A DNA stretch of 64,000 bases from Candidatus Borkfalkia ceftriaxoniphila (lineage in GTDB: Bacteria; Bacillota; Clostridia; Christensenellales; Borkfalkiaceae): contig NZ_SDOZ01000002.1 of assembly GCF_004134775.1 (NCBI RefSeq), forward strand, positions 1,861,356 to 1,925,355. Direction: 5' to 3'. A program made the position numbers and the translations under genes. Every line of letters begins with the position of its first letter. Positions within the stretch are counted from its first letter, which is position 1. Shown piece by piece: positions 8,229 through 31,591 of the stretch. The notes under the pieces were generated by a model. That model was not told where the DNA came from. It saw only the letters and a program-made list of their open reading frames with translations, and searched no databases.

Positions 8229-8237
8229 TAAAATGGA

Positions 8238-12822: not shown

Positions 12823-15789
12823 TTATAAGGCGCGTATGCTTTCCACGGGGCGTTTTTTTGCAATGGAATAAACGGGCAGGAACGTGGAAACGACGGAAGT
12901 GAAAACGGCAATTCCCGCCAAGAGCGCGGCGCACAGCGGACTGAACACGAATAGCGTCAGAGGGAGAGCGAGTTTTTGCAGTATGATATTGTTGATGATC
13001 GAACAAAGAACGATGCTCGCGATGATTGACAGAACCAAACTGATCGCCGTAATGATGGCGGATTCCGCGTAAAAGATCTTAAAGACGTCCGTCCCGCGCG
13101 CGCCGACCGCGCGCAGAATGCCGATCTCCTTCTTCTTGTAGGTGATGGAAACGGAAATAAAATTGAACAGCATCAGCATGGCAAACAGCGCCAGGGCAAG
13201 CCCTATGTATAAAAAAACTTTGGAAAATATACTCACCGTTTCGACGATGCCGCCGATCGTTTCTTTGGTTTCGCTGTTCACGTCGAAGAAAGAATCGTCC
13301 TCTTTCACGTGATACAGTTTATCGAGCGTCTTGTCGATCGCTGCGTCCGATTTTTCTACGAAAACAGCCGCATATTTGCCGCCCGCCGCATCGTACTTGG
13401 TTTCGTATTCGGTCCAGGTGTTGGAGGGATCGTGCAAAACGAAATCGTACAGCGAATCGCCGAGATACGCCGCTTCGTACCAGCTATCGTTGACCCCGCA
13501 TGGTTCTATATAAAATCCTGCGACGCTTGCCGTCGTCGAGAGTTGCGTGTATCCGTTTGCAAATTCATATTCGGTTTTGGGCAAAGGTACGTTGTACGCG
13601 TCGATGATACCCTTTTTGATATCCCGATAAAATTCTACGCTTTTTTCTTCGTCTAAGTAGACTCTGTTGTTATCGTCGTCATCATAATAGCCGTACTGCA
13701 ATGCTTGCAATTTGTCGTAATAGGATATTCCGTGTTCGTCCTCGTCAGAGAGATGCCAATACCCGTCGGAATTTTGAATCGCATTATAAAGCCATTCCGC
13801 CCAGACTTCCCGTGATACCGCGATCTCGTCGGGCCGCAGGGAAGCGAGGGGCGTTCCTTCAAATCCGTATAGGGGAAGTCCGTTTTCCGTATGTTTGGAA
13901 AAATAATTCAGGCTTATTGTATTGTTGTTTTCGTCTGTCAGGTCGTAATCATATGTATAGTCTTTGAAATACGTCGATACGCCTATGATCTCTTCCGGTT
14001 GATAAGAATGCGTAAAATATTTTTCGTTCGCCGCGTAGAAATCATCGGAAACGAGCAGGTAATTATAAAAACCCGTGCGGATTTCGGTTTCCCATTGCTC
14101 TTTGAGCCGCGACTGACCGATTCCTCCCGTTTTTAAATCGTCGAATTTATCGGGAACGGTCTGCGCCTTATAGACGCCGCAAACCGTATAATAACGATTA
14201 TTCCATAAACTGATTTTTACGTTTTTCAAATCCCCGAAACTATTTATTTCTGTTTCCGTTCCGTCGGGGGATATGATCGAACCCGCCGCTTTGAGGCACT
14301 CGAAGGTATAGTCGGAGATCATGACTTCGTCCGTCCCTGCGGGATATTTTCCCCAAAGTATCTTGTCGGAGCGGTAGGAACTGCCCTGGCCAGTTATGCC
14401 GAAACCGAATATTTGATTTTCGTAGAGCGGGGGCGCGTCTTGGGAGGATATGTTCTCGATGGAAAAGACTATGCTGTAATCTGAGTATGTAAAGGCAATG
14501 ACTGCCTCGTTGCCGTAAGCAGTGCGGATCTCGTCCACGTCGCTTTCCTTGAATTGGGTCAAGGTGGGGTTCTCGTACGTGCCTGTCAAGCCGTTCGCGT
14601 TAAATTCTTTTATGGTGACTTGATATTTCTTGACGATTTGCAGATATTCGTCGTTCGAAACTTTCAAACTCTCGCCCAGGACCTGTTTTTCGTTGAACAG
14701 CATCAGCGTGGAAAAAAGTCCGAACATGACGAAAGAAATAAAGGTCAGAAAGATGGTAAAGAACAAGCGCAAAGGTTTTACTTTCATGCTGCTCGCGCCG
14801 ATCTTTGCCGCGTGGCGCATGGGAAGTCTGGACTTGATAAATTCGCTCTCGTCCTGCCGATAGTGCCTGATACGGATATCTTCGGGTTTCGTTTCACAAA
14901 ATTCTTCGCGCGAGCCGTTTTCGTCCACGTGCGCCTGCCGATAAAATTTTTCGATATCGGCGTTTCCGTTGGCGATCAGAACCTGTTTTTCGGACGATGC
15001 GATGAACGCGCGGATATTTTGCAGATCCGTGTCCGTAAGAGCCGCGCCGCTCTTGACGCTGATCAGGTCCGTGCCGATAAAGGACACGTTTTCGCTCGCC
15101 TTTTTCGCCGCGATCTTGTTCTTTTTCACGTCGGAGATCACTTTCCCGTCTTTGAGTTCGATGATGCGGTCGGCGTACAATTCAGCGAATTCCCGATCGT
15201 GCGAAACGACGAGGACGAGTTTATCTTCGGAAAGTTTTTTCAGCGTATCGAAAACCTGCCGCCCCGTTGCCGAATCGAGCGCGCCCGTCGGTTCGTCCGC
15301 CATGATGATCTCGGGTTCCTTGACGAGCGCGCGGGCGATCGCGACGCGCTGTTTTTGTCCGCCCGAAAGGGTATTCGGCTTGCGCTTTGCAAAGTTTTCC
15401 AACTCCACCGCGCGCAGAATTTCCTGGATTTTTTCCCTGTCTTTCGCCTTGCCCTGCAATTCGAGGGCGAGCGCGACGTTCGCTTCCACCGTAAATTCGT
15501 CTAAAATGTTGTATTCCTGAAAGATAAAACCTATGTAGGTATTGCGGTAACTGTCGAAGTCGCCCGCCGTGAAAGTTTCGCTGCCCCGCCCTTTTACGAT
15601 GATCTCTCCCGAATCGGGCCTGTCCAGGCCGCCGCATAAGTTTAATAGGGTGGATTTGCCGCTTCCCGATTTTCCGAGAAGAAAAACCATGCCCGTATCT
15701 TCGAAGGTGAGGGACACCCCGTCGAGCGCGCGCACGCTAACCCCGCCTTTGGCGGTATAAATTTTGGTAAGATTGCGAATTTCTAACAT
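12823..15789 (-). CDS. fused ABC transporter, MacB/FtsX type (ATPase plus permease)
   Basis: 988 residues from the ATG at 15789 (CAGGAGAAAAA upstream); the longer frame would begin in the promoter. Residues 1-~230 are the ATPase: Walker A LLGKSGSGKSTL, signature LSGGQKQRVAIARAL, Walker [14 protein letters not shown] membrane segment (~residues 345-370, LFFTIFLTFISFVMFGLFSTL) is followed by ~480 extracytoplasmic residues. Three membrane segments in the last ~130 residues carry the FtsX domain (KKKEIGILRAVGARGTDVFKIF). Such proteins usually resist or export peptides or drive envelope mechanics. It stands alone with no two-component system next to it. Confidence 0.9.
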   Translation of the reverse strand: MLEIRNLTKIYTAKGGVSVRALDGVSLTFEDTGMVFLLGKSGSGKSTLLNLCGGLDRPDSGEIIVKGRGSETFTAGDFDSYRNTYIGFIFQEYNILDEFTVEANVALALELQGKAKDREKIQEILRAVELENFAKRKPNTLSGGQKQRVAIARALVKEPEIIMADEPTGALDSATGRQVFDTLKKLSEDKLVLVVSHDREFAELYADRIIELKDGKVISDVKKNKIAAKKASENVSFIGTDLISVKSGAALTDTDLQNIRAFIASSEKQVLIANGNADIEKFYRQAHVDENGSREEFCETKPEDIRIRHYRQDESEFIKSRLPMRHAAKIGASSMKVKPLRLFFTIFLTFISFVMFGLFSTLMLFNEKQVLGESLKVSNDEYLQIVKKYQVTIKEFNANGLTGTYENPTLTQFKESDVDEIRTAYGNEAVIAFTYSDYSIVFSIENISSQDAPPLYENQIFGFGITGQGSSYRSDKILWGKYPAGTDEVMISDYTFECLKAAGSIISPDGTETEINSFGDLKNVKISLWNNRYYTVCGVYKAQTVPDKFDDLKTGGIGQSRLKEQWETEIRTGFYNYLLVSDDFYAANEKYFTHSYQPEEIIGVSTYFKDYTYDYDLTDENNNTISLNYFSKHTENGLPLYGFEGTPLASLRPDEIAVSREVWAEWLYNAIQNSDGYWHLSDEDEHGISYYDKLQALQYGYYDDDDNNRVYLDEEKSVEFYRDIKKGIIDAYNVPLPKTEYEFANGYTQLSTTASVAGFYIEPCGVNDSWYEAAYLGDSLYDFVLHDPSNTWTEYETKYDAAGGKYAAVFVEKSDAAIDKTLDKLYHVKEDDSFFDVNSETKETIGGIVETVSIFSKVFLYIGLALALFAMLMLFNFISVSITYKKKEIGILRAVGARGTDVFKIFYAESAIITAISLVLSIIASIVLCSIINNIILQKLALPLTLFVFSPLCAALLAGIAVFTSVVSTFLPVYSIAKKRPVESIRAL

Positions 15790-15823
15790 TTTTTCTCCTG
15801 TTGCCGTAAAGGCCGATAGATGA

Positions 15824-15852
15824 AGTATAGCATAAACATATACAAAATGCAA
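15824..15852 (-). promoter_or_regulatory. promoter of the fused ABC gene
   Basis: On the minus strand: TTGCAT (complement of 15847-15852), a 17-bp spacer, TATACT (complement of 15824-15829), with an extended TG two bases before the -10. Confidence 0.65.
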
Positions 15853-15947: not shown

Positions 15948-17246
15948 ATGGTCATGTTCAGTCCCGAATTCGAAACAGCCGACAGAAAAGCGATCGAGGC
16001 GCTGCAACTCGAACGCTTAAAATATATCGTCGGCTACGCATATGATAACGTGCCCATGTATCGGCGTAAATTCGACGCGATCGGGCTCAAACCCTCGCAT
16101 ATCAAGACGTTTAAAGACGTTTCGCTCATTCCCTATACCACGAAGGACGACCTGCGCGAAAATTATCCGTTCGGGCTGTTCGCCGTCCCCATGAAAAAGA
16201 TCATCCGCCTGCACGCGTCCAGCGGCACCACGGGCAAACCCGTCGTGGGCGGCTATACCCGCAAAGATCTGGACGACTGGGCGACTTGCATCGCCCGCGT
16301 TCTGGCGATGGCGGGCGCGACCGACGAGGACATCATACAGGTGTCTTTCGGCTACGGACTGTTCACGGGCGGGTTCGGTTTGCATTACGGCATCGAAAAA
16401 CTGGGCGCCACCGTTGTTCCCATGTCCTCGGGAAATACCGAGCGCCAACTGATGCTTTTAAAAGATTTCGGCGCGACGGGGCTGGTCGCAACGCCCAGTT
16501 ACGCCATGTATCTGATGGAAACGGCAAGGCGGAACGGCATGCTCAAAGATCTCAAACTGCGCCTCGCCATTCTCGGCGCCGAGGCTTCGACCGCGGAAAT
16601 GCACGCGTCTTTGCGGGAAATTTCGGGCGTGTTCCCCACGGAAAACTACGGACTGACGGAAGTGGGCGGCCCCGGCGTTTCGGGTGAATGCCGCGAAAAG
16701 GCTGGCATGCACATCAACGAAGATTATTTTTATCCCGAGATCGTCGATATCGAAAAGAACGAGGTGCTTAAAGAGGGCGAGAGCGGCGAACTTCTGATCA
16801 CGACGCTCGCGAAAGAGGGAATGCCTGTTCTCCGTTACCGCACCAAGGACATCACTTCACTCACCTATGCGCCGTGTAAGTGCGGCCGCACGACGGCGCG
16901 TATGTCCCGCGTGGTGGGAAGAACGGACGATATGCTCATCATCCGCGGCGTCAACGTGTTTCCTTCGCAGATCGAAAGCGTGCTCATGGGCATGCGCGAA
17001 CTGGGCAAGAATTACGAGATCATCGTGGACAGGGCAAATTACATGGATTCTCTGGAAGTGCGCGTGGAGGTGGACGACGCCAACCTTTTGACCGATTACG
17101 GAAAGCTGGAAGAGTTGGTCGCGCGTATCCGCCACAATTTGCGTGTGGTCGTGCAGTTGGACGTGAAAGTCAAACTGGTTGAGCCCATGTCCATCCGCCG
17201 CGGCGAAGGAAAAGTCAAGCGCGTGATCGATCTGCGCAGCAAATAA
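15948..17246 (+). CDS. paaK: phenylacetate--CoA ligase (first copy)
   Basis: 432 residues. ANL adenylate-forming family: P-loop ASSGTTGKPVVGGYT (~residues 88-102), FGYGLFTGGFGLHYG, ENYGLTEVGGPGVSGEC, YRTKDITSL and the C-terminal catalytic region VVGRTDDMLIIRGVNVFPSQIE. It makes aryl-CoA from aryl acid, CoA and ATP. In this operon it can also run towards ATP formation from the aryl-acyl-CoA released by IorAB. The start at 15948 has GGAAGGTGA upstream; ATG at 15954 is an alternative. It begins a five-gene operon. Confidence 0.95.
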   Translation: MVMFSPEFETADRKAIEALQLERLKYIVGYAYDNVPMYRRKFDAIGLKPSHIKTFKDVSLIPYTTKDDLRENYPFGLFAVPMKKIIRLHASSGTTGKPVVGGYTRKDLDDWATCIARVLAMAGATDEDIIQVSFGYGLFTGGFGLHYGIEKLGATVVPMSSGNTERQLMLLKDFGATGLVATPSYAMYLMETARRNGMLKDLKLRLAILGAEASTAEMHASLREISGVFPTENYGLTEVGGPGVSGECREKAGMHINEDYFYPEIVDIEKNEVLKEGESGELLITTLAKEGMPVLRYRTKDITSLTYAPCKCGRTTARMSRVVGRTDDMLIIRGVNVFPSQIESVLMGMRELGKNYEIIVDRANYMDSLEVRVEVDDANLLTDYGKLEELVARIRHNLRVVVQLDVKVKLVEPMSIRRGEGKVKRVIDLRSK

Positions 17247-17275: not shown

Positions 17276-18994
17276 ATGAAGAAATTATTGTTAGGCGATT
17301 TCGCCGTCGCGCGCGGCGCGTACGAGGCGGGCGTGAAAGTGGCGACCGCCTATCCGGGAACGCCTTCCACGGAGATCACCGAGGAGATCTCGCGCTACGA
17401 CGAAGTGTACAGCGAATGGTCCCCCAACGAAAAGGTGGCGCTGGAAGTGGGCATAGGCGCCGCGATCCGCGGCGCGCGCACGCTCGTTTCCATGAAGCAC
17501 GTGGGGCTCAACGTGGCGTGCGATCCGCTGTTTACGTCTGTATATACGGGCGTCAACGCGGGGCTGGTCATCGCCGTGGCGGACGATCCGTCCGTGTTCA
17601 GTTCGCAGAACGAACAGGATACCCGCCTGACTGCGGTCAGCGCGAGGATCCCCGTGATTGAGCCTTCCGACAGCCGTGAGGCGAAGGACTTTACCAAGGC
17701 GGCGTTTGAAATTTCGGAAAAATACGATACGCCCGTCATTTTGCGCATCACCACGCGCGTCGCCCACTCCCAGAGCCAGGTGGAGTTGTGCGAACGGGAA
17801 GAGCGCCCCGTCAAAGAATACAAAAAAGACATTGCCAAATACGTGATGATGCCCGCCAACGCCAAGCGCAAGCACGTGGTGGTGGAGGAGCGCCTCGAAA
17901 AACTTTCCGAGGATGCGAACGGATTTTCATTCAATCAAATCGAAGAGGGCGACGGCGAGATCGGCATCATCTGCGCGGGCGGCGTCTACCAGTTCGTCAA
18001 AGAGGCGCTGCCGAACGCGAGCGTTTTAAAACTCGGCATGAGTTATCCGCTCCCGTATAAACTGATCGAAAAATTCGCTAAGAGCGTCAAACGCTGTATC
18101 GTTGCGGAAGAACTTGCGCCGCACATCGAAACGCTCGTCAAGGCGCACGGGATCAAAGTGGAGGGCAAGAACCTTTTCCCGCTCAACGGCGAATTTTCCG
18201 CGTCGCTCATCCGCGAGCGCGTGCTCGGGGAAAAGATCGGACACAAGGCGGCGGAAGTGCCCGCGCGCCCGCCCGTGCTCTGTTCGGGCTGCCCGCACCG
18301 CGGCGTGTTCTACGTTTTGTCCAAACTCAAACTCAACGTGCTCGGCGATATCGGCTGCTATACGCTCGGCGCGGTGGCGCCGCTTTCCGCCATGGACGCG
18401 GTCGTGTGCATGGGCGCGAGTATCGGCATGGCGATCGGGTTCGACAAAGCCGACCCCGAAGCGCATAAACATTCGGTCGCGGTCATCGGCGATTCCACCT
18501 TCTGCCACAGCGGCGTGACGGGGCTAATGGACGCGGTGTATAACCGTTCCAACGTGACGGTCATCATTCTGGATAACCGCACCACGGGCATGACGGGGCA
18601 TCAGAACCACCCCGCCACGGGCAAGACCATCAAAAACGAGCCGACGTACGAACTCGACCTGGAACAGGTCTGCCGCGCGGTCGGCGTGAAGAGCGTGAAC
18701 ACCGTCGATCCCAACGATATCGGAACGTTTGAAAAAGTTTTGAAAGAGGAACTTTTGAAAGAGGAAGTTTCCGTCATCATCGCAAAGCGTCCGTGCGTTC
18801 TTCTCACCAAAAAATTGTATGAAAGTTTCGTCATTACGGACAAATGCAAGAACTGCAAAATGTGTCTGAAACTCGGATGTCCCGCCATCGTGAACGGCAA
18901 AAACGGCGTGACCATCGACGTTTCGCTGTGCACGGAATGCGGTCTTTGCCAGAACGTCTGCAAATTCGGCGCTATTCAGGGGAGGAACAAATAA
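17276..18994 (+). CDS. iorA: indolepyruvate ferredoxin oxidoreductase, alpha subunit
   Basis: 572 residues. N-terminal pyruvate-oxidoreductase-like domain (LLLGDFAVARGAYEAGV, AYPGTPSTEITEEI, EWSPNEKVALEVGIGAA), then a thiamine-diphosphate domain (CSGCPHRGVF, GDIGCYTLG, GASIGMAIG, IGDSTFCHSGVTGL). Two 4Fe-4S clusters sit at the C-terminus (CKNCKMCLKLGCPAI from ~residue 524, and CTECGLCQNVCKFGAI). It decarboxylates indolepyruvate, phenylpyruvate and hydroxyphenylpyruvate to acyl-CoA while reducing ferredoxin. The stop overlaps the iorB start by one base. Confidence 0.97.
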   Translation: MKKLLLGDFAVARGAYEAGVKVATAYPGTPSTEITEEISRYDEVYSEWSPNEKVALEVGIGAAIRGARTLVSMKHVGLNVACDPLFTSVYTGVNAGLVIAVADDPSVFSSQNEQDTRLTAVSARIPVIEPSDSREAKDFTKAAFEISEKYDTPVILRITTRVAHSQSQVELCEREERPVKEYKKDIAKYVMMPANAKRKHVVVEERLEKLSEDANGFSFNQIEEGDGEIGIICAGGVYQFVKEALPNASVLKLGMSYPLPYKLIEKFAKSVKRCIVAEELAPHIETLVKAHGIKVEGKNLFPLNGEFSASLIRERVLGEKIGHKAAEVPARPPVLCSGCPHRGVFYVLSKLKLNVLGDIGCYTLGAVAPLSAMDAVVCMGASIGMAIGFDKADPEAHKHSVAVIGDSTFCHSGVTGLMDAVYNRSNVTVIILDNRTTGMTGHQNHPATGKTIKNEPTYELDLEQVCRAVGVKSVNTVDPNDIGTFEKVLKEELLKEEVSVIIAKRPCVLLTKKLYESFVITDKCKNCKMCLKLGCPAIVNGKNGVTIDVSLCTECGLCQNVCKFGAIQGRNK

Positions 18995-19568: not shown

Positions 19569-20888
19569 ATGCAGAAAACAAAGATACAAGATCATATCTT
19601 CAATCCCGCATACGAGTGTTTGTCCCGTTCGGAAATGCAGAATCTGCAGAGCGAACGGCTGAGAAAGACGGTGGAACGCGTCTACAACAACTGCGCGCCT
19701 TACCGCAAAAAGATGGACGAACTCAAACTGAAACCTTCCGACGTCAAGTCGGTTTCCGACCTTTATAAACTGCCGTTCACCGTCAAGCACGATTTAAGAG
19801 AGGCGTACCCGTTCGGCTTTTATTCTTCGCCCGCAGAGGATATCGTGGAAGTGCACGCGTCCAGCGGCACCACGGGCAAACTCACGGTGGTGGGATATAG
19901 CCGCAACGATCTGGAAGTATGGAGCGAGATCGTCGCGCGCGGGCTTTCCATGGCGGGCGTGACCAAGGATTCCATGGTGCACGTCGCTTACGGCTACGGC
20001 CTGTTTACGGGCGGGCTGGGCGCGCACTACGGCGCGCAGAAGATCGGCGCTTCCACCGTTCCCGCGTCCGCGGGCAACACCATCCGCCAGTTGACGCTTT
20101 TAAGGGATTTCGGCGCGACGCACCTTTGCTGTACGCCTTCCTACGCCATCTTTCTGGGAACGGAGATCGAAAAGGCGGGCATGAAAATAGAAGATTTCTC
20201 CCTGGTGGGCGGCGCGTTCGGCGCCGAACCCTGGACGGACAATATGCGCCGCGAGATCGAACGCACCCTGCATATCGACGCTCTGGATATCTACGGCCTT
20301 TCGGAGATCTGCGGGCCTGGCGTTGCGATGGAGTGCCTGCAAAAGAGCGGTTCGCACGTGCAGGAAGACCATTTCATTCCCGAGATCATCGATCCCGAAA
20401 CGCTGGAACCGCTGCCGTTCGGCAGCGAAGGGGAACTCGTGTTCACCACGATCACCAAGACGGGACAGCCGCTCATACGCTACCGCACGCGCGATCTTTG
20501 CACCCTCTCAAACGAGAAGTGCGCCTGCGGCCGCACCACGGTCAAGATGGGGCGCGTCAAGGGGCGTTCGGACGATATGCTCATCGTGCGCGGCGTCAAC
20601 GTGTTCCCTTCGCAGATCGAGGCGGCAATCATGAACGTTGCGGGCGTGTCGCCGCATTATATGATCTACGTGGACCGCGTGAACAATCTCGATACCATGG
20701 AGATCCATATCGAACTTGCGGGCAATATCGCGCCCGACATGGTGAGCGATCTGGAATCCATCAAAAAGAAAGTGGAAACGGAAGTCAATTCCTATATCGG
20801 CGTGGGCGCGCGCATCAAACTTTGCGAATCGGGCTCCATTCAGCGGAGCGAAGGCAAAGCGCAGCGCGTCGTCGACCGCAGAAAATAA
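19569..20888 (+). CDS. paaK: phenylacetate--CoA ligase (second copy)
   Basis: 439 residues. It has the same ANL motifs as the first copy (ASSGTTGKLTVVGYS, YGYGLFTGGLGAHYG, IYGLSEICGPGVAMEC, VKGRSDDMLIVRGVNVFPSQIE) but is clearly divergent, not a recent duplicate. Two ligases on one transcript suggest different acyl specificities, for example phenylacetate against indoleacetate or a branched acid. GAGGCGAAAAG precedes the ATG. It is followed after 21 nt by the ACT gene. Confidence 0.94.
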   Translation: MQKTKIQDHIFNPAYECLSRSEMQNLQSERLRKTVERVYNNCAPYRKKMDELKLKPSDVKSVSDLYKLPFTVKHDLREAYPFGFYSSPAEDIVEVHASSGTTGKLTVVGYSRNDLEVWSEIVARGLSMAGVTKDSMVHVAYGYGLFTGGLGAHYGAQKIGASTVPASAGNTIRQLTLLRDFGATHLCCTPSYAIFLGTEIEKAGMKIEDFSLVGGAFGAEPWTDNMRREIERTLHIDALDIYGLSEICGPGVAMECLQKSGSHVQEDHFIPEIIDPETLEPLPFGSEGELVFTTITKTGQPLIRYRTRDLCTLSNEKCACGRTTVKMGRVKGRSDDMLIVRGVNVFPSQIEAAIMNVAGVSPHYMIYVDRVNNLDTMEIHIELAGNIAPDMVSDLESIKKKVETEVNSYIGVGARIKLCESGSIQRSEGKAQRVVDRRK

Positions 20889-21447: not shown

Positions 21448-22842
21448 ATGAAAGGCTATAAAGACCTGACGACGGGAAGTCCGTTTAAAAATATTTTGTT
21501 TTTTTGTATTCCCATTTTTATCGGGAATATTTTTCAGCAACTTTACAGCATGGTCGACACCATCATCGTGGGGCAGACCATCTCGCTCGACGCGCTCGCC
21601 GCGGTCGGCTGTACGGGTTCGGTCAATTTTCTCATACTCGGCTTCATATCGGGCGTATGCAGCGGATTCGGCGTTCTCATCGCGCAGTTTTACGGCGCGG
21701 GGGACGAAGAAAACGTCAGGCGTTCGGTCGGCACTTCCTATGTGCTCTGCATTGCCGTCACCGCCGTCGTCACTGCCGTTGCGGTCGCGACCGCCATGCC
21801 CCTTTTAAAACTGATGCGCACCGATTCCGCCATTATCGGCGACGCTTATGATTACATAATCGTCATTTTCTGGGGCATCGGCGCGACTACCTTATATAAT
21901 ATGGCGTCGTGTATGCTCCGCGCCATCGGGGACAGCCGCGCGCCGCTGTATTTTCTCATCTTCGCCTCCGTTCTCAATATCGGGCTGGATTATCTGTGCA
22001 TTCTCGTATTTCGCATGGGCGTGGCGGGCGCGGGCGTCGCCACCGTCTTGTCCCAACTCGTATCGGGCGTATTATGCCTTTTGTACGCACTGAAAAAATA
22101 TAAGATCCTGCGCACGCGGCGCCGCCATTTCTGGACGAACGCGCTCTTTGGCTGGAAACATTTGAAAGTGGGGCTTCCGATGGCGCTGCAATTCTCCATT
22201 ACGGCCATCGGGGTCATGGTCGTGCAGTCGGTGCTCAACACCATGGGTACGGACACCGTCGCCGCCTATACCGCGGCCTCCAAAATAGACAGCATCGCGC
22301 AGCAGCCCTTCGTCGCTATCGGCGCGGCCATTGCCACCTACTGCGCGCAGAATTACGGCGCAAAGCAGTACGGGCGCATCAAAAAGGGCATGAATATCGG
22401 ACTGCTGCTCACCGTTATTTTCAGCGCCGCGGGGTTTTTACTCATTCTGCTCTTGAAAAAACCGCTCATTCTCCTATTTGCGGGGGAGGATTACGAGAGG
22501 ATCTACGACAATGCCGCCATGTACCTGTATATCAACGCGGGCACGTATCTGCTTCTGGGGCTTATCTTTCTCTATCGGAACGGGATCCAGGGCATGGGCT
22601 TTTCCGCCGTCACCATGCTTGCGGGCGGCGCGGAACTCGTCATGCGTATCGTCGCCGCGCTCATATTCGCGCGTTATTGGGGATATATCGGCGTGTGTTC
22701 CGCCAATCCCGCCGCATGGTTCGGGGCGGACGTCATTCTCGTCATCGTATACGCGGTGCTCGCCAAAAAATCCATTCCCACCGCCAAAACGCCAAAACGA
22801 AAACATCATTCTCCCTTCGAAGATCGTGAGATCGCCCGTTAA
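21448..22842 (+). CDS. MATE-family efflux transporter (first)
   Basis: 464 residues with about twelve membrane segments in two homologous halves. Typical motifs: FCIPIFIGNIFQQLYSMVDTIIVGQ at the start, AAVGCTGSVNFLILGFISGVCSGFG, and AAYTAASKIDSIAQQPFVAIGAAIATYCAQNYGA in the second half. It exports drugs or metabolites in exchange for sodium or protons. It is a single gene with its own promoter and terminator and no dedicated regulator nearby. The substrate is unknown. Confidence 0.93.
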   Translation: MKGYKDLTTGSPFKNILFFCIPIFIGNIFQQLYSMVDTIIVGQTISLDALAAVGCTGSVNFLILGFISGVCSGFGVLIAQFYGAGDEENVRRSVGTSYVLCIAVTAVVTAVAVATAMPLLKLMRTDSAIIGDAYDYIIVIFWGIGATTLYNMASCMLRAIGDSRAPLYFLIFASVLNIGLDYLCILVFRMGVAGAGVATVLSQLVSGVLCLLYALKKYKILRTRRRHFWTNALFGWKHLKVGLPMALQFSITAIGVMVVQSVLNTMGTDTVAAYTAASKIDSIAQQPFVAIGAAIATYCAQNYGAKQYGRIKKGMNIGLLLTVIFSAAGFLLILLLKKPLILLFAGEDYERIYDNAAMYLYINAGTYLLLGLIFLYRNGIQGMGFSAVTMLAGGAELVMRIVAALIFARYWGYIGVCSANPAAWFGADVILVIVYAVLAKKSIPTAKTPKRKHHSPFEDREIAR

Positions 22843-22851
22843 CTCAGAAAG

Positions 22852-22880
22852 AAAGCAGTCGAATTTCGACTGCTTTTGTA
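22852..22880 (+). terminator. intrinsic terminator after the first MATE gene
   Basis: AAAGCAGTCGA, 3-nt loop, TCGACTGCTTT, followed by a T-rich stretch. Confidence 0.8.
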
Positions 22881-22908
22881 ATTTTTGTCATGAATTTTTG
22901 TGATATAT

Positions 22909-22937
22909 TTGACAAATCGGCATAGAAATAATATAAT
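22909..22937 (+). promoter_or_regulatory. perfect consensus promoter of the giant lipoprotein
   Basis: TTGACA (22909-22914), a 17-bp spacer, TATAAT (22932-22937), both elements exact consensus. The -35 region is preceded by TTGTCA, giving a widely spaced inverted repeat with TGACAA. Confidence 0.85.
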
Positions 22938-22985
22938 AGAAAATGTAATAGTTAATCATGACATTTATTACGGAAAGTTAAGAGA

Positions 22986-25900
22986 ATGAAACATTTATCG
23001 AAAAAAGTGCTGATCATAATCGTCGTCATCGCGATCATCGCCACGGCTACCGTGGTCTTTTTCGCTTGTCAGCCCAAACCGGCCGCCACGCCGCCGCCCA
23101 AAAACGGGCATACGGTCAGCATGGCGCCGCCCGAGGACGGAACTTCTCCCGAAGATTACGATGGGCTGGAAAATCTCGCTTATATGGCGGGCAGGCTTTC
23201 CGCGCGTACGTATTTTCACAGCGAGAATACGGGACTGGTGGACACCATCGCAAAACAGAACGTAGTGGGGACCAAGGATTATTATAACGGCATTCTCATC
23301 ACGCAATCGGTGAGCACCAGCGCCTTTGCGAGCGTCGCGCAGCAGAAATTTTACGGCGACGGCAAAGTGGTCGTCCGCGGACCCAGATATGACAAGGGCA
23401 AGTGGAACGGAATACATACCGAGTGGTCGAACGATAAGCCCGTTTCCGTGCTCGACGAGGCGCAATATCTGGAAGCGTACGGGCTTTGGGCGGACGAGTT
23501 TTCCGATTACGTGCTCAATGCCGAAACCGTGAGCGACGTTTCCGACCTTGCCCGCGACGAGAACGGAAATTTCGTGCAGACTTTCACGCTCGATCCCTCG
23601 GGCTCGACCTATTATTATAAGCGTCAGATGCGCACTATGGGGAATCTCGGGGATTATCCCTCTTTCTCGTCGGTGCAGATCACGTTTACGTTCGACGACA
23701 CATGGTCGGTTTTGCGTGCGGATATCGAGGAAGAATACAAAGTTTCCGTTTCGGTGCTCAACGTATCCTGCAAGGCGACTTCATCTATCGTGTACACATA
23801 CGAAGAGAGCGCCGTGGACGTTTCCGCGTACGAATCGTATTTCAAAAACTATGCCGATGCTCCCGTTACGGGCGGCGGCGAAACGCCGCTTACCGTCGTA
23901 GATTATCTCCAACAGGGTTTTGCGGGGTATCTCGCCGAGCCTTCCACGTTCGATCTGAAGATCGCGGTCAACGGCGATACCGTTGCGGGGCGCGTGACGC
24001 TCGATCTCGCCAACGGTCTGGAGATCCGCGCGTCTTTGGGCGATCTTCTCCTCAATGTCGAAAGCGATTCGCTCTACGTACAATATAAAGAGTTGACGGG
24101 CAAATTGGCGCTTTCCGACCTGATTTCACTGGCGGGAGGCGGTTTTGCAGGCGTCGATCCCGATAAACTGATGGAACAACTCGCTTCGGGCAGCATTTCC
24201 AAGGATGGGGAAAACGTCACCATCGAATGCGCTCTTGATTTGGCGGGACTGCATCTGCCGTTGACCTTCCGTTTTCTCGAAACGGAAAGCGGCGTTTCGT
24301 TCGTCGACGTTTCGGCTGCCTTGCGGTTCGAGCCGATCGATATCGGAGCGTCCTTCGCGCCCGCTAAAGGCGCCGACGCCGTCGCAAAGATCGATGCCTC
24401 GAAAGCGGTCGATCTCAAACCTTACGTCGATAGTATTTTCGAGATCGTAAATTCCAAGAGTTTCACGCTCGCGCTCGGCTATGATAACGCCGACCTCGGA
24501 CTTTCGGTTTCGGGCGAATTGTATATCGACGCCTTGCGTCCCGCGCTTCGCGGCGAGATTTTCATCGCCTATGCGGGATTGGATATTCCCGTACGATTTA
24601 CGTTTATAGACGAAACCGTCTATCTGCAGGTCTTTGAAATCAAACTGAAAACTTCGCAGGAATATCTCGTTGAGGCGCTCGAAGCGGCGCTGCGCGCTGC
24701 GGACGTAACTTTACCCGATCTCGGCGCGCTGGATCTGAAAGCGGCGATTTCCGCCGTTATCACCGCGGATTACGACTCGATCATTCAAAAACTCCGACTG
24801 ACAGACGAGAAACTTTCGCTCGTCGTCGATCTGGACGCGTTCATAGCGGATATGAACCTCGGCGAACTCTCTGCAAACTTCATGCCCGCGGAAAACGCGT
24901 TCGGTTTGTCCGTATACGGCGTAACGGCGAAAATGCAGGGCGTGGCTATCCGCGAAGTGGGCGCGCCCGCAGACGCGGAAAGTTTTATGGAACTGAGTCT
25001 GTTCGAAAATTTCGTGCAGCCTGTCCTGGAACTTGCGAACGCAAAGGATATCGCGTTCCGTTTCGCCGTGGAAACGACGGTGGAAAATATCGCGTTGACC
25101 GGCGAGATCGTCGGCGAAATCAAGTTCGAAAACGCTCTTGAAATATATCTTCAGATCACGCTCAACGGCAAGACCGTCGAAGTGTTGTACCGAAATAATA
25201 ACGTGTATCTCGGGTTTGCGGGGCAAAAAGTAAAACTCGCGGAAAGCGAACTGACGGTGCTCGCCGAAAAACTGAGCGGATTGTTCCGAAACACGGAAGG
25301 TGAAAAAGATCTTCTCGCGTTCTTCTCCGCGGAAGGTCTGGATTTGCAGGCGCTGCTGGAAAGTATCCGTCTTACGGGAGTGGAAGAAAACGGCGCGGCT
25401 ATCCTGAATCTGTTCGTGGACTTGGGAATCCTCAACGAAAATCTTTCCGACATCGGTGCGAAAATCACGACGGACGGACATAAACTGTTCGTTTCCGCGA
25501 TCCAACCCGTAGATCTGTTCGGGATCTCGCTTGGCAAACTGGAAGCGTCGGTCTGCGCGGCGGAAAATGAATACGCCTACGATTTTGCAAATTCCGTAGA
25601 TTTAAAACCGTATCTCGACAGCATTTATAAACTCGCGGAAGAGCAGAGTTTCGAGATCACTGCGGCGTATAAGAATAACGGCCTCGGGCTGTCCGTCAAC
25701 GGCATGATCTACGCGAACGTAAAAAATGCAGCAGTGTCGGGCGAACTGACCGTAAGTTACGCGGGACTGACGATACCCGTAAACTTTACTTACATAAATA
25801 AAAATATTTATCTGCAAGTTTACAACGTAAAAATACAGACGACCGCGGAATACGCCGCATATGCCATCGAAAGCGCACTGAAATATTTCAACGTCAGTTT

Positions 25901-28900
25901 GCCGAGCGTTGGCGGCGTGGACGTGACGGAGATTCTGGGCGCGGTCATTACTGCGGACTATACAAAATTCATAAAACAGTTTACGATCTCCGACGAAAGT
26001 CTTTCGCTTACCGTTGACATGGACGCGCTCATAGCGGATATGAACCTCGGCGAACTCTCTGCAAACTTCATGCCCGCGGAAAACGCGTTCGGTTTGTCCG
26101 TGTACGGCGTAACGGCGAAAATGCAGGGCGTGGCTATCCGCGAAGTGGGCGCGCCCGCGGACGCGGAAAGTTTTATGGAACTGAGTCTGTTCGAAAATTT
26201 CGTGCAGCCTGTCCTGGAACTTGCGAACGCAAAGGATATCGCGTTCCGTTTCGCCGTGGAAACGACGGTGGAAAATATCGCGTTGACCGGCGAGATCCTC
26301 GGCGAAATCAAGTTCGAAAACGCTCTTGAAATATATCTTCAGATCACGCTCAACGGCAAGACCGTCGAAGTGTTGTACCGAAACAATAACGTGTATCTCG
26401 GGTTTGCGGGTCAAAAAGTAAAACTCGCGGAAAGCGAACTGACGGTGCTCGCCGAAAAACTGAGCGTATTGTTCCGAAACACGGAAGGTGAAAAAGATCT
26501 TCTCGCGTTCTTCTCCGCGGAAGGACTGGATTTGCAGGCGCTGCTGGAAAGTATCCGTCTTACGGGCGTGGAAGAAAACGGCGCGGCTATCCTGAATCTG
26601 TTCGTGGACTTGGGAATCCTCAACGAAAATCTTACCGACATCGGTGCGAAAATCACGACGGACGGACATAAACTGTTCGTTTCCGCGATCCAACCCGTAG
26701 ATCTGTTCGGGATCTCGCTTGGCAAACTGGAAGCGTCGGTCTGCGCGGCGGAAAATGAATACGCCTACGATTTTGCAAATTCCGTAGATTTAAAACCGTA
26801 TCTCGACAGCATTTATAAACTCGCGGAAGAGCAGAGTTTCGAGATCACTGCGGCGTATGAGAATAACGGCCTCGGGCTGTCCGTCAACGGCATGATCTAC
26901 GCAAACGTGAAAAATGCAGCAGTGTCGGGCGAACTGACCGTAAGTTACGCGGGACTGACGATACCCGTAAACTTTACTTACATAAATAAAAATATTTATC
27001 TGCAAGTTTACAACGTAAAAATACAGACGACCGCGGAATACGCCGCATATGCCATCGAAAGCGCACTGAAATATTTCAACGTCAGTTTGCCGAGCGTTGG
27101 CGGCGTGGACGTGACGGAGATTCTGGGCGCGGTCATTACTGCGGACTATACAAAATTCATAAAACAGTTTACGATCTCCGACGAAAGTCTTTCGCTTACC
27201 GTTGACATGGACGCGCTCATAGCGGATATGAACCTCGGCGAACTCTCTGCAAACTTCATGCCCGCGGAAAACGCTTTCGGTTTGTCCGTATACGGCGTAA
27301 CGGCGAAAATGCAGGGCGTGACCGCCCGCGAAGCGGGCGCGCCCGCGGACGCGGACGATTACGTTTCGCTTGAACTTTTTGAAAAGTTTATCGAGCCTGT
27401 CCAGAATCTTGTAAAGAGCGACGATATCGCGATTGCTCTGGAATTCGGCGCAAAAATTCACGACGTCGAAATGACGGTCGCGCTTTCGGTCGAGATCAAA
27501 CATATCGGACAGGATATGCAGGCGTATCTGAAAGCGGAGATCTTTGTGGACGGATTTGCGGATGAAGTGATAGAGTTGACTTATCGCGACGACTACGTAA
27601 CGCTGGTCTATGAAGGCAAGATGATGCGCGTGCCCGTATCGCAATTGCAACAGATCGCGCAAAAACTCGGCGGATTGTTTGCCTCGAAGGGTGAAACCGC
27701 AGATCAAGGTTTGCAGGCGGCGATCCTGTTATTCAGCGAAGACGGCATCGATTTGCAGGCGTTTCTGGAGAGCCTGTGCCTTTCGGGACGTACGGAAGAA
27801 GGGAAAACCATTCTCGGCTTGTTTGCGGATCTGAGACTTCTTGACGAGCGGCTTTCGGAAACACGAATAGAGATATCGACGGACGGACAGAAATTGTCCG
27901 CAGGCCTTGTCGGCGGCACGGTTGTTTTCGGCTTGCCCGTGAATATGCTCGAAGTATCGCTCTGGCCTGCCGCCGACGAATTCCCGTACGATTTTTCGGG
28001 CGCGGAAGAATGCGGCAACGTATTCGAATTTGCGCTCAACGCTTACGTTGCGCTCTTCGATACGAAATACCTCAACGTTTCGGCGCAATACGATTCCGAA
28101 CTTTTGCAGGCGAACGTGAGCGGATTGTTCGAATTTGTGCCCGCGTCCGATACGGGAACAGAACTTTCTATCAATTTCGATCTTCGCGCCGAGATCCATA
28201 CCTTCGCGTTGAACGATGCGGCGGAGAAAATCGATGCAGGCTCCCATTACCTCAATATGACGGCGGTGGGCGAAACGGCTTATGTTTCCTATTCGTTGAG
28301 TGGCTACAATGCCGATACCGCGCTGTACGTCAGTATTCCCGTAGAGCAGTTGTATAAGATCGGAAATATGCTTCTGCCCATCATGGGACTGGACGCGAAC
28401 GCTCCGTATTACGATCTGATCGATCATCTCCTTTCCGCGGGCGAAACGCAGTTTACGACGGGTATTTTCAGTGCGATCCAGTTTGCGGATCTTCTAAAAT
28501 TGCTTGACGGCATACCGCAGGCGCAGGGCGTATCGGCTGACGGCGTGGCGGCGCTGTCGGAAAATCTGTCGTTGTTTGCGTTCGGCGCAAACGAAAACGG
28601 CGATATTTCTTTCACGCTGAGCGGGCTGTCTGTCGGAAACGGCGAAACGCTTTCGCTTTCGATCACGGCGCAAAGAGCGGGTGAAATAGCGGTCGATACG
28701 AGCAAAACGTATATCGATATCTCTTCGGTTTCGCTGTTGTTCGAAGATCTGCTCAACGCCTATCAATATACCGATACGGGCTATGAACTCAAAGGTTCGC
28801 TCGGATTGAGCCTTTTGGGGATAGACCTCGACCTTACGGTGAACATCGAACTGAAAGTCGGCGTAGAGACGGACGGAACGCCGTATCTGAACGTAAATCT

Positions 28901-29519
28901 GAAAACGAACGGTTATAATAATATCTTGGTTCTCGCTATTTTCGGTACGCAGGTCGTAACAAACGGCGATACGGAAACGGACATTACGTTCAAAGACGGA
29001 TCGATTTACATGACGCGCGTGCAGTCTACCTCCTGGCAGAAGAAAAATTGGATCTCATACGCTTTCTTACCGATCACGCCCGAATATCAGTACCGCAAAA
29101 TGTCGCTGGAAGAATTTGCGGGCGACGCGATGGATCAGATCTTTTTCGCGATCAATCTGAGCGACGGCGCGAAAAGTTATATTTCCAAACAGATAAATTC
29201 CTCGGACGGCGGCTCGGGCACGACGAAGGACGCGGGCGAAATGGTGAAGGGCTATTCTTTCGCAAACGACGTGCATACGCTGAAACTCGACGTGGGCGCG
29301 ATCGCGGGCGATTCCGCCTTGGGCGAACTGACGCTGAATATTACCCGCGCCCGTCTCGAAGGCAAAGATTATTACGATCTCGTCAAACTCGACGGCACGA
29401 TGATACTCGTATCGGTCATCACGATGAAATTCGATCTGACGCATCAAAGTTGCGGCAATGCCGTGGATTTCACCGTGATCGACGAAAATATCTCGCGCGT
29501 AAACGCAAACGTCGCCTGA
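22986..29519 (+). CDS. giant repeat-containing surface lipoprotein, unknown function
   Basis: 2177 residues. A basic start, a hydrophobic core and a lipobox ending at Cys28 (VVFFAC) predict a membrane-anchored extracellular lipoprotein; a Pro-rich linker follows. Residues ~55-290 form a unique N-terminal region. From residue ~475 two modules alternate: module A (VDLKPYxDSI... IADMNLGELSANFMPAEN...) and module B (MELSLFENFVQPVLELA... LFGISLGKLEASV). Residues 620-1015 and 1016-1411 are two almost identical 396-residue units (4 changes noticed) and 1412-1445 begins a third. Diverged module copies flank them, and residues ~1667-2177 are a unique C-terminal half. The pattern is beta-rich and recalls LolA/LppX-like lipid-binding folds, but I recognise no family. 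There is no LPXTG or other wall anchor. Confidence 0.85.
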   Translation: MKHLSKKVLIIIVVIAIIATATVVFFACQPKPAATPPPKNGHTVSMAPPEDGTSPEDYDGLENLAYMAGRLSARTYFHSENTGLVDTIAKQNVVGTKDYYNGILITQSVSTSAFASVAQQKFYGDGKVVVRGPRYDKGKWNGIHTEWSNDKPVSVLDEAQYLEAYGLWADEFSDYVLNAETVSDVSDLARDENGNFVQTFTLDPSGSTYYYKRQMRTMGNLGDYPSFSSVQITFTFDDTWSVLRADIEEEYKVSVSVLNVSCKATSSIVYTYEESAVDVSAYESYFKNYADAPVTGGGETPLTVVDYLQQGFAGYLAEPSTFDLKIAVNGDTVAGRVTLDLANGLEIRASLGDLLLNVESDSLYVQYKELTGKLALSDLISLAGGGFAGVDPDKLMEQLASGSISKDGENVTIECALDLAGLHLPLTFRFLETESGVSFVDVSAALRFEPIDIGASFAPAKGADAVAKIDASKAVDLKPYVDSIFEIVNSKSFTLALGYDNADLGLSVSGELYIDALRPALRGEIFIAYAGLDIPVRFTFIDETVYLQVFEIKLKTSQEYLVEALEAALRAADVTLPDLGALDLKAAISAVITADYDSIIQKLRLTDEKLSLVVDLDAFIADMNLGELSANFMPAENAFGLSVYGVTAKMQGVAIREVGAPADAESFMELSLFENFVQPVLELANAKDIAFRFAVETTVENIALTGEIVGEIKFENALEIYLQITLNGKTVEVLYRNNNVYLGFAGQKVKLAESELTVLAEKLSGLFRNTEGEKDLLAFFSAEGLDLQALLESIRLTGVEENGAAILNLFVDLGILNENLSDIGAKITTDGHKLFVSAIQPVDLFGISLGKLEASVCAAENEYAYDFANSVDLKPYLDSIYKLAEEQSFEITAAYKNNGLGLSVNGMIYANVKNAAVSGELTVSYAGLTIPVNFTYINKNIYLQVYNVKIQTTAEYAAYAIESALKYFNVSLPSVGGVDVTEILGAVITADYTKFIKQFTISDESLSLTVDMDALIADMNLGELSANFMPAENAFGLSVYGVTAKMQGVAIREVGAPADAESFMELSLFENFVQPVLELANAKDIAFRFAVETTVENIALTGEILGEIKFENALEIYLQITLNGKTVEVLYRNNNVYLGFAGQKVKLAESELTVLAEKLSVLFRNTEGEKDLLAFFSAEGLDLQALLESIRLTGVEENGAAILNLFVDLGILNENLTDIGAKITTDGHKLFVSAIQPVDLFGISLGKLEASVCAAENEYAYDFANSVDLKPYLDSIYKLAEEQSFEITAAYENNGLGLSVNGMIYANVKNAAVSGELTVSYAGLTIPVNFTYINKNIYLQVYNVKIQTTAEYAAYAIESALKYFNVSLPSVGGVDVTEILGAVITADYTKFIKQFTISDESLSLTVDMDALIADMNLGELSANFMPAENAFGLSVYGVTAKMQGVTAREAGAPADADDYVSLELFEKFIEPVQNLVKSDDIAIALEFGAKIHDVEMTVALSVEIKHIGQDMQAYLKAEIFVDGFADEVIELTYRDDYVTLVYEGKMMRVPVSQLQQIAQKLGGLFASKGETADQGLQAAILLFSEDGIDLQAFLESLCLSGRTEEGKTILGLFADLRLLDERLSETRIEISTDGQKLSAGLVGGTVVFGLPVNMLEVSLWPAADEFPYDFSGAEECGNVFEFALNAYVALFDTKYLNVSAQYDSELLQANVSGLFEFVPASDTGTELSINFDLRAEIHTFALNDAAEKIDAGSHYLNMTAVGETAYVSYSLSGYNADTALYVSIPVEQLYKIGNMLLPIMGLDANAPYYDLIDHLLSAGETQFTTGIFSAIQFADLLKLLDGIPQAQGVSADGVAALSENLSLFAFGANENGDISFTLSGLSVGNGETLSLSITAQRAGEIAVDTSKTYIDISSVSLLFEDLLNAYQYTDTGYELKGSLGLSLLGIDLDLTVNIELKVGVETDGTPYLNVNLKTNGYNNILVLAIFGTQVVTNGDTETDITFKDGSIYMTRVQSTSWQKKNWISYAFLPITPEYQYRKMSLEEFAGDAMDQIFFAINLSDGAKSYISKQINSSDGGSGTTKDAGEMVKGYSFANDVHTLKLDVGAIAGDSALGELTLNITRARLEGKDYYDLVKLDGTMILVSVITMKFDLTHQSCGNAVDFTVIDENISRVNANVA
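24843..27320 (+). repeat. 1188-bp in-frame tandem duplication inside the giant lipoprotein gene
   Basis: Unit 1 (24843-26030) and unit 2 (26031-27218) match almost base for base over 1188 bp (396 codons). A third partial copy of ~102 bp (27219-27320) ends where the sequence turns to ACCGCCCGCG. The identity begins sharply at the IADMNLGELS codons and the same ~102 bp recurs at every junction, as expected from unequal crossing-over within that conserved segment. Protein differences noticed between units: Val/Leu, Gly/Val, Ser/Thr and Lys/Glu. Confidence 0.93.
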
Positions 29520-29557
29520 CAAAAATAGAAATTTTTTAAAAATCTTCAACAAAACGG

Positions 29558-29586
29558 TTGCCAAATCGGGCGGGATATGCTATTAT
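29558..29586 (+). promoter_or_regulatory. promoter of the leuA T-box leader
   Basis: TTGCCA (29558-29563), a 17-bp spacer, TATTAT (29581-29586). Transcription would start near 29593, giving a ~320-nt leader. Confidence 0.7.
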
Positions 29587-29592
29587 GTTATC

Positions 29593-29890
29593 AACATATA
29601 GTTTTATATGGAAACGCTGTGAAGCGGAACAGTATCTCAAAAACGGGTTGCAGAAAACCGTCGGATGATGCGAGACGGTCAATGGTTTTGGGAGAACTCC
29701 CCGCCGAGCGGTTTGCTCGAAAGGAAACGAGTAGAAGCAAAACGGTATCTCACCGTTACAAGAGAGGGATATGCGTCGGAAAAGACAAGTATTCTTTGTA
29801 AGAGCGCGCGAAGGAAATCGCGTGAAATGAAGTGGTACCGCGGAACCTGTTTTCGTCTTCAAAAAAGACGAAAACAGGTTTATTTTTTTA
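29593..29890 (+). promoter_or_regulatory. T-box riboswitch leader of leuA
   Basis: The leader contains the T-box core GAAGTGGTACCGCGG (29829-29843), directly followed by a strong terminator hairpin (29844-29880, 16-bp arms) and a T tract. In this family an uncharged tRNA pairs with a specifier codon in Stem I and its free CCA end with the T-box, forming the antiterminator. Uncharged tRNA-Leu is expected, given the downstream 2-isopropylmalate synthase. CTC triplets occur in the early leader (near 29635 and 29748), but I could not fold Stem I well enough to choose the specifier. Confidence 0.92.
29844..29888 (+). terminator. T-box-controlled transcription terminator
   Basis: AACCTGTTTTCGTCTT (29844-29859), a 5-nt loop, the complementary arm (29865-29880), then TATTTTTTT. 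The left side of the antiterminator would be the preceding T-box segment. Confidence 0.92.
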
Positions 29891-29917
29891 TTCTGAACAA
29901 GAAAAGGAGTGATTATA

Positions 29918-31591
29918 ATGAAAAATTATCAGAGATATACCAAAATGTTCTCCATGCCGCCCGTGCGCAGCATGGATTGGGCTGAAAAAACGTGCGTGGA
30001 GAAAGCGCCCGTCTGGTGCAGCGTGGATCTTCGCGACGGCAACCAGGCGCTCATCGAACCGATGAGCCTCGGTCAGAAAGTCGAATTTTTCAAACTCCTT
30101 TTAAAGATCGGCTTTAAGGAGATCGAAGTGGGCTTTCCCGCCGCGAGCGAAACGGAATACGAGTTTTTGCGCACCCTCATCGAAAACGATCTCATTCCCG
30201 ACGACGTTACCGTGCAGGTTCTGACGCAGGCGCGCGAACACATCATCCGCAAGACGTTCGAGGCGATCAAAGGCGCGAAAAACGCGATCGTGCACGTGTA
30301 TAATTCCACGTCGGTCGCCCAGCGCGAGCAGGTGTTTAAAAAGAGCCGCGAAGAAATTTTGAAGATCGCGGTGGACGGCGCGAAATTATTGAAAAAACTA
30401 GCGGACGAAGCGGGGGAAAACTACCGTTTCGAATACAGTCCCGAAAGTTTTACGGGCACAGAACCCGAATACGCGCTGGAAGTCTGCAACGCCGTTTTAG
30501 ACGTATGGCAGCCGACGAAAGACCGCAAGGCGATCATCAACATACCCGCGACCGTGGAAAACGCCATGCCGCACGTGTTCGCCCAACAGGTGGAATATAT
30601 CTCGAAAAATCTCAAATTCCGCGGGAACGTGGTGCTCAGCCTGCACCCGCACAATGACCGCGGATGCGGCGTCGCCGCATCGGAAATGGGGCTTTTGGCG
30701 GGCGCCGACCGCGTGGAAGGCACGCTGTTCGGCAACGGCGAACGCACGGGCAACGCCGATATCGTCACCGTCGCCATGAACCTCTTTTCGCAGGGCGTCG
30801 ATCCCGAACTGGATTTTTCCTTTATGCCCGAGATCTGCGAAAAATACAGGGAATTCACGCAGATGGAAATATCACCCCGTCAGCCGTACGCGGGCGCGCT
30901 CGTGTTCGCGGCTTTTTCCGGCTCCCATCAGGACGCCATCGCCAAGGGCATGCAGTGGCGGCGCGACAAAAAATGCGAATTCTGGACAGTGCCGTATCTT
31001 CCCATCGATCCCGCGGACGTGGGCCGCGAATATCAGACGGACGTCATCCGTATCAACAGCCAGTCGGGAAAGGGCGGCGTGGGCTTTATATTACAGGAAA
31101 ACTTCGGCGTGAACCTTCCTCCCAAATTCAAAGAGGCGATGGGCTACGCCGCCAAAGACGTATCGGATAAGACGCACAAAGAGTTGAAACCCGACGAGGT
31201 ATACCGCGTATTTTTGGAGCGTTTCGTGGAAAACCGTCCCTTGTTCGACGTGAGCGAATGTCATTTTAAACAACTTGCGGGCGGTATCGAGGCGACGGTC
31301 ACCGTCGCGGAACAGGGAAAAAAGAGCGTCGTGCAGGCGGTCGGAAACGGGCGGCTGGACGCGGTTTCCAACGCGCTTAAAAAACATTTCGGCGCAGCGT
31401 ACACGCTCACGACCTACGAACAACATTCGCTGGGCGAGCAGTCGACTTCCAAAGCGCTCTCCTTCGTGGGCGTGGAAGGGGACGGAAAAACAGGCTGGGG
31501 CGCCGGCATCGACGAGGATATCATACAATCCTCCTTCGAGGCGCTGTGCGCCGCATTGAACAATCTGTTCGTTTCCCGCGGGAAAGATTGA
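29918..31591 (+). CDS. leuA: 2-isopropylmalate synthase (LeuA type 2, with regulatory domain)
   Basis: 557 residues from the ATG at 29918; AAAAGGAGTGATT lies upstream, so the in-frame GTG at 29909 is within the ribosome site. Catalytic barrel: SVDLRDGNQALIEPMS, EIEVGFPAASETEYEF, LSLHPHNDRGCGVAASEM and GTLFGNGERTGNADIVTVAMNL. The C-terminal third (from ~residue 430) is the leucine-sensing regulatory domain. It condenses acetyl-CoA with 2-oxoisovalerate, the first step of leucine synthesis. No leuBCD or ilv genes follow, so it is an isolated pathway gene under a T-box. Confidence 0.96.
   Translation: MKNYQRYTKMFSMPPVRSMDWAEKTCVEKAPVWCSVDLRDGNQALIEPMSLGQKVEFFKLLLKIGFKEIEVGFPAASETEYEFLRTLIENDLIPDDVTVQVLTQAREHIIRKTFEAIKGAKNAIVHVYNSTSVAQREQVFKKSREEILKIAVDGAKLLKKLADEAGENYRFEYSPESFTGTEPEYALEVCNAVLDVWQPTKDRKAIINIPATVENAMPHVFAQQVEYISKNLKFRGNVVLSLHPHNDRGCGVAASEMGLLAGADRVEGTLFGNGERTGNADIVTVAMNLFSQGVDPELDFSFMPEICEKYREFTQMEISPRQPYAGALVFAAFSGSHQDAIAKGMQWRRDKKCEFWTVPYLPIDPADVGREYQTDVIRINSQSGKGGVGFILQENFGVNLPPKFKEAMGYAAKDVSDKTHKELKPDEVYRVFLERFVENRPLFDVSECHFKQLAGGIEATVTVAEQGKKSVVQAVGNGRLDAVSNALKKHFGAAYTLTTYEQHSLGEQSTSKALSFVGVEGDGKTGWGAGIDEDIIQSSFEALCAALNNLFVSRGKD

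Follow-up and report, generated by a model that had tools for sequence, protein, structure and literature searches.

The 64,000-nucleotide stretch of the Candidatus Borkfalkia ceftriaxoniphila genome analysed here (contig NZ_SDOZ01000002.1, positions 1,861,356 to 1,925,355; referred to below as the window) contains a gene of 2177 codons, which lies in one unbroken frame on the forward strand (22986-29519). Its product is probably a variable-length, membrane-tethered chain of modules with the LolA/LppX fold, in which recombination at the junction between two module types, B and A, changes the number of AB pairs. In this it would resemble the Periscope Proteins, among them SasG, Rib/alpha C, Sgo_0707 and CdrA (PMC8201768, PMC9704523).

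The gene holds an internal tandem duplication. Its two units (24843-26030 and 26031-27218) show 12 mismatches over 1188 bases, eight of which are synonymous, and behind them 102 bp belonging to a third copy extend to 27320; tracts 26031-26132 and 27219-27320 have two mismatches between them. Self-comparison at an offset of 1188 (50-base windows) gives 40-60% identity across 24401-24800 and 96-100% across 24851-26100, and then drops to 88% or less. The stretch of near-identity opens at the boundary of codons 619 and 620 (IADMN...) and runs through codon 1445 (...MQGV) of the third tract; for a 1.2-kb direct repeat at 99% identity a test against chance was judged unnecessary. A first-pass annotation of the window had described a near-perfect 1188-bp tandem duplication with about 102 bp of a third copy, a single frame of about 6.5 kb, breakpoints in the IADMNLGELS-to-MQGV segment and diverged copies of the same modules on both sides; each of these was confirmed, the diverged copies being A0/B0 before the duplication and A2/B2 after it. 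Between the unit copies (codons 620-1015 and 1016-1411) synonymous divergence (dS) is 0.030 and non-synonymous divergence (dN) 0.0044, which indicates that constraint has acted on both ever since their separation or latest homogenisation.

Each 396-residue unit is a pair (A+B) of mutually homologous modules of about 190 residues, and the whole protein reads from its sequence as N-(A0B0)-(A1B1)n-(A2B2)-C, with n = 2 in the window as assembled. A Pfam search with the 2177-residue protein returned no family over its cut-off, and an NCBIfam search found no family. The parts of the gene are as follows.

22909..22937 (+): promoter-like site of the sigma-70 type, TTGACA-17-TATAAT, matching 12/12 (consensus scan)
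22986..29519 (+): whole gene, 2177 residues, for a probably N-terminally membrane-tethered repeat protein
22986..23069 (+): signal peptide with lipobox-like ...VVFFA-C28 (from the sequence)
23067..23885 (+): N domain, predicted LppX/LprG-like fold, the most conserved part
23913..24368 (+): module A0 of the first pair, predicted LolA-like
24393..24941 (+): module B0 of the first pair
24843..24944 (+): junction tract copy 1, codons 620-653
24843..26030 (+): duplicated unit copy 1, 396 codons (self-comparison)
25017..25565 (+): module A1 of the middle pair
25581..26129 (+): module B1 of the middle pair
26031..26132 (+): junction tract copy 2, codons 1016-1049
26031..27218 (+): duplicated unit copy 2 (self-comparison)
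26205..26753 (+): module A1' of the second middle pair
26769..27317 (+): module B1' of the second middle pair
27219..27320 (+): junction tract copy 3, codons 1412-1445
27396..27971 (+): module A2 of the last pair (A vs A2, hhalign probability 99.6)
28002..28589 (+): module B2 of the last pair, a weak match (E 1.1e-8; B vs B2, hhalign probability 96.8)
28596..29516 (+): C-terminal domain, presumed membrane-distal end (hhalign probability to A2 94.9)

The promoter scan covered 22700-30100 and gave 12 sites against a shuffle mean of 5.8, with the 12/12 match only at 22909..22937. In conservation the N and C-terminal domains exceed every A or B module in six of six comparisons. Identity in the four closer comparisons is 69-76% for the N domain, 53-63% for the C-terminal domain and 32-61% for the modules; in the other two the C-terminal domain is at 35-43%. 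Judged from these alignments, the variable part of the protein is the part between the more conserved N domain and C-terminal domain.

Public relatives of the protein form a ladder of lengths. Proteins of 1781 residues with one middle pair make up 11 clusters (one of them with 104 members on 34 contigs), and two relatives of 1385 residues, P0013 and P0014, have no middle pair. The steps are exactly 396 residues, since 1781 is 2177 minus 396 and 1385 is 2177 minus 792. Flank identity to the window protein is 98.7-99.5% for all 11 one-pair proteins, 99.5% for P0013 and 94.0% for P0014. As flanks that are 98.7-99.5% identical enclose zero, one or two middle pairs, copy number varies between close strains, the counts being taken from database proteins rather than from long-read genomes. 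No other 2177-residue (two-copy) allele of this species was found among the listed public relatives. A second lineage has a similar pair of alleles, P0025 (1772 residues, one middle pair) and P0030 (1374 residues, none), with termini 99% identical. The more distant P0016 (2213 residues, 51% identical) has its own duplicated middle pair, 98.1% identical over 370 residues, with other breakpoints that start about 70 residues beyond those of the window; its cluster has five members on four contigs. The suggestion in the first-pass annotation that repeat number varies between strains was thus borne out, with zero, one or two pairs here and zero or one in the second lineage.

The pairs can be told apart by position. 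When 34 AB pairs taken from 12 proteins are placed on one tree, all 12 first pairs fall together in a clade, and all 12 last pairs in a second (100/100). The ten middle pairs fall outside both without a supported clade of their own. A middle pair is therefore an old feature, and it is here that pairs are lost or amplified, while the first and last ones are stable. In the same tree the duplicates stay within their own species: those of the window group with the single middle pair of P0006, and those of P0016 with each other. Forms with no middle pair are best read as losses. A second tree was built from the N- and C-terminal parts of 19 of 26 proteins (P0003, P0004, P0007-P0009, P0012 and P0033 were omitted). 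On it, pair number changes at least eight times (shuffled mean 7.1) and does not cluster, and the well-supported branches force six changes for the two-pair label and six for the three-pair label.

The junction from B to A appears to carry the trace of these events. When the first and middle pairs of a protein are compared, the best 30-residue window at the junction is 87-100% identical in five of eight proteins (P0005, P0015, P0025, P0026 and P0027), in which the first 140 residues of B are just 30-44% identical. Against the first copies of six other species the same junction window is 20-83% identical, with the highest values within the close trio P0025-P0027; the contrast is slight for P0027 (87% vs 83%). 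No clear tract was found in P0017 or P0031 among the eight proteins examined, and in P0016 the identical stretch marks where its own duplicated unit begins and hence stands outside the count. Lineage-specific sameness within a protein is the expected trace of crossing-over or gene conversion at the junction, and on this sequence evidence a near-identical junction between otherwise diverged pairs is a recombination footprint. The junction tract of the window is the IADMNLGELS...MQGV segment, which supports the earlier proposal of unequal crossing-over there.

AlphaFold2 models of the AB pair and of the N domain have predicted local distance difference test (pLDDT) scores of 86.2 and 89.5, and their top structural matches are mostly LppX, LprG, LprF and LolA. 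The same four proteins are the best matches of the N domain, A0, A1 and B1, and the LprG entries include forms bound to phosphatidylinositol mannoside (PIM) and triacylglyceride (TAG). The LolA/LppX/LprG fold, a half beta-barrel with helices, is clear in the predicted structures of N, A0 and A1, and less clear for module B, which porin and autotransporter barrels match too. Modelling of a 396-residue unit, proposed in the first-pass annotation as a way to see its fold, did show it, in the form of two homologous LolA/LppX-like modules rather than one fold. Among relatives, the Pfam family PF07161 (LppX_LprAFG) has a weak match in 2 of 56 (best E 0.0022, below the curated cut-off), and the window unit matches neither it nor any other family at E <= 0.01. 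Profile comparison (hhalign) gave no link of the N domain to A or B, despite their alike predicted folds.

The N-terminus probably provides a lipid anchor. It has a lipobox-like VFFA-C28, the same motif is present in P0015-P0017, and several members of the genus have a similar one. Phe at positions -3 and -2 of a lipobox is atypical. The gene lspA was found in eight of eight relatives tested, over the cut-off in three. A loose lipobox pattern was met in 32 of 75 open reading frames (ORFs) of the family, some of these matches being surely spurious, and no match to this pattern was found in L117-L120 or L124. The earlier description of the protein as a lipoprotein is therefore likely and not certain, as some relatives have an apparent plain membrane anchor. 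As a separate observation, the N-termini of the family (L115-L194, loose pattern) appear to alternate, some having a lipobox Cys and others an uncleaved membrane anchor, with the other architecture kept. An Omp85 search gave no match in 40 of 40 genus-level genomes, with a control that matched 7 of 14 known genomes. The host, a Borkfalkia-like member of the Clostridia, is on this genomic evidence probably without an outer membrane, and an outer-membrane shuttle of the LolA type is not expected in it.

Matches were found in 237 of 398 genomes of the family searched, and the longest open frame among the matches listed has 5888 codons. In nine long relatives that were annotated, the array after A0 consists nearly entirely of B modules, with as many as 17 in L135. 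L138 (G229; 4917 residues) has five copies of a 382-residue B+B unit at 95-100% identity, and L135 and L136 have units of 603/612 residues repeated at about 98%. From 80 loci (L115-L194), all but L148, L176 and L183, 77 in total, had an ORF of at least 800 residues that passed the module profile. In 22 of the 77 a 150-bp window reaches at least 90% repeat identity, and eight (L135, L136, L137, L138, L141, L165, L168 and L192, read off the list) have repeats of at least 95% over at least 450 bp; these counts are not rates, because L135-L154 were chosen for length. No array at the latter threshold was found in any of the 19 ORFs from the genus-level set (L115-L133, including two that are cut). 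Pfam PF09479 is additionally present in 17 of 25 more distant relatives (P0034-P0058, about 1750-2520 residues). The idea that hidden repeats break contigs in the genus was dropped: at the low-coordinate contig ends covered, 12 matches began within 60 bases of the contig start (9 of 37 matching genomes) against eight for rpoB (6 of 38), no clear excess given that the repeat gene is longer.

In the mechanism we favour, the N-terminus would tether the surface protein to the cell membrane of a Borkfalkia-like gut member of the Clostridia that probably has no outer membrane, and a whole AB pair would be added or removed in frame through homologous recombination close to, or at, the B-to-A junction. 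With the terminal domains kept, and likewise the first and the last pair, this would give proteins of 1385, 1781 and 2177 residues in close strains, and pair number would most likely alter the projection of the C-terminal end from the membrane. The higher conservation of the N and C-terminal domains relative to the modules is consistent with two functional ends linked through a spacer that can change, as seen in Periscope Proteins, and by analogy with these a longer reach with more pairs is plausible.

Periscope Proteins, as their published descriptions have it, are surface proteins with tandem, near-identical folded domains whose number differs between close strains, and a change of repeat number through recombination between near-identical repeats has been proposed for them, as it is here. 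The Periscope screen looked for tandem repeats of more than 50 residues at 80% identity or above (PMC8201768); the window has 396-residue units with middle pairs 98.9% identical over 371 residues, and zero, one or two pairs occur in database proteins from close strains. Three differences are apparent. Periscope domains have about 50-165 residues, with Ig-like, beta-grasp and three-helix folds among others (PMC9704523), whereas the window modules are LolA/LppX-like, of about 190 residues, a fold not named for the class in the accounts cited. The tether of the window protein would be N-terminal instead of a C-terminal sortase motif, and its repeat unit is a heterogeneous A+B pair.

Mycobacterial LppX, LprG and LprF share with the window protein the predicted fold of its N, A and B modules and, likely, an N-terminal lipid anchor. 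They are single-domain proteins; the window protein has eight A/B modules in a row. LolA and LolB carry lipoproteins to the outer membrane (PMC8496864), and the genomes related to the window, in contrast, have no Omp85 match (0 of 40). GerS of Clostridioides difficile, a LolA-like lipoprotein that activates the amidase CwlD in spore formation (PMC8496864), likewise has a host within the Clostridia; the window protein differs in its tandem array, none being mentioned for GerS in the parts of that paper drawn on here. A literature search at title and abstract level, mostly of open-access papers, found no tandem LolA-like arrays.

The modules may instead form a ligand chain, in which each would bind a lipid or another hydrophobic compound of the gut, to be relayed or stored by the array between wall surface and membrane, with copy number setting capacity or span. 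This is possible though on balance unlikely. The models of N, A0, A1 and B1 do best match lipid carriers, the B arrays of the family run up to 17, and LprG offers a precedent, binding TAG in a hydrophobic cleft and moving it between membranes with a membrane transporter as partner (PMC4709180). The fold is no proof of ligand binding, however: GerS activates an enzyme and LprG moves triacylglyceride, so fold alone cannot settle function. Modules that vary faster than the ends also argue against such a chain. In favour of the chain, a MATE-family efflux gene (21448-22842) lies directly upstream of the repeat gene, and among the first 20 loci of the downstream gene leuA both L001 and L003 have a homologue of it in that position. 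Against the chain, no such homologue was found upstream in L004, L017 or L018 (other leuA loci may include too little upstream DNA), and a terminator-like hairpin and the repeat gene's own promoter separate the repeat gene from the MATE gene. The MATE gene was considered as a partner and left out of the reading we favour. A spacer role is somewhat more likely than a ligand chain, and the two are compatible.

It is also conceivable, if doubtful, that identical junctions simply let pairs come and go as neutral recombination noise, without selection on length. Pair number does not cluster on the terminus tree, and strains without any middle pair exist (P0013, P0030), as neutrality would have it. 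Yet dN is far below dS between the unit copies, and the middle pairs of both species groups fall outside the first and last clades, which marks them as old and kept in many lineages. The intact frame of each allele says little here, because an allele with a broken frame would not appear among the long proteins on record.

Improbable to our minds is an assembly artefact, either a head-to-tail join of unit variants from two strains or some other miscount of copies. In its favour, the 102-bp flanking tracts would permit an assembly-graph loop, the V/L difference between the copies at site 709 recurs as a polymorphism among one-copy alleles, and the listed relatives include no second 2177-residue protein. 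But residue 899 is G in both window copies and D in 11 of 11 one-copy alleles, and of the four residue differences inside the unit three (V765, T821, K896) are private to the window, so that the copies look like one lineage rather than two strains joined by the assembler. The duplicated middle pair of P0016 is a further point against it, and the usual short-read assembly error is collapse rather than expansion.

Downstream of the repeat gene, leuA (2-isopropylmalate synthase, PRK03739-type model; 29909-31591) is preceded by a T-box leader (29610-29863; Rfam RF00230, 117 bits), whose end is overlapped by a terminator-like hairpin at 29843-29881. This leuA is closest to those of Candidatus Borkfalkia and other Clostridia genomes, with the nearest loci at about 79-82%, and a repeat-protein homologue lies upstream of leuA on the same strand in L001, L003-L008, L017 and L018. 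Elsewhere in the window, two phenylacetate-CoA-ligase-like genes below the PaaK cut-off (15948-17246 and 19569-20888) enclose an indolepyruvate:ferredoxin oxidoreductase alpha gene (17276-18994), which suggests an aromatic 2-oxoacid pathway. A 1009-residue protein encoded at 12823-15852 (-) has an N-terminal MacB/LolD-like ABC ATPase domain and is a possible lipid or lipoprotein handler, and a short tandem repeat at 8193-8233 has an 18-bp unit in 2.3 copies.

Variable-length surface proteins as such are known; what is new here is the module fold, the ladder of AB pairs across strains and lineages, and the junction footprint. A bolder idea, which we think unlikely, is that a so far unnamed class exists of giant membrane-tethered chains with a lipid-carrier fold in single-membrane gut Clostridia, serving as a strain-variable conduit or store for hydrophobic ligands through the cell wall, its span tuned by recombination. 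Set beside the published accounts of such proteins, the present findings widen the range of surface 'stalk' proteins that vary between strains, adding gut Clostridia, a little-studied group, and a lipid-carrier fold, and tie a change in copy number to a recombination tract that is visible in the sequence at a domain junction. Alleles with zero, one and two middle pairs are already present in sequence collections. If the modules do bind hydrophobic ligands, this would suggest new lipid or bile-compound handling in a single-membrane bacterium.

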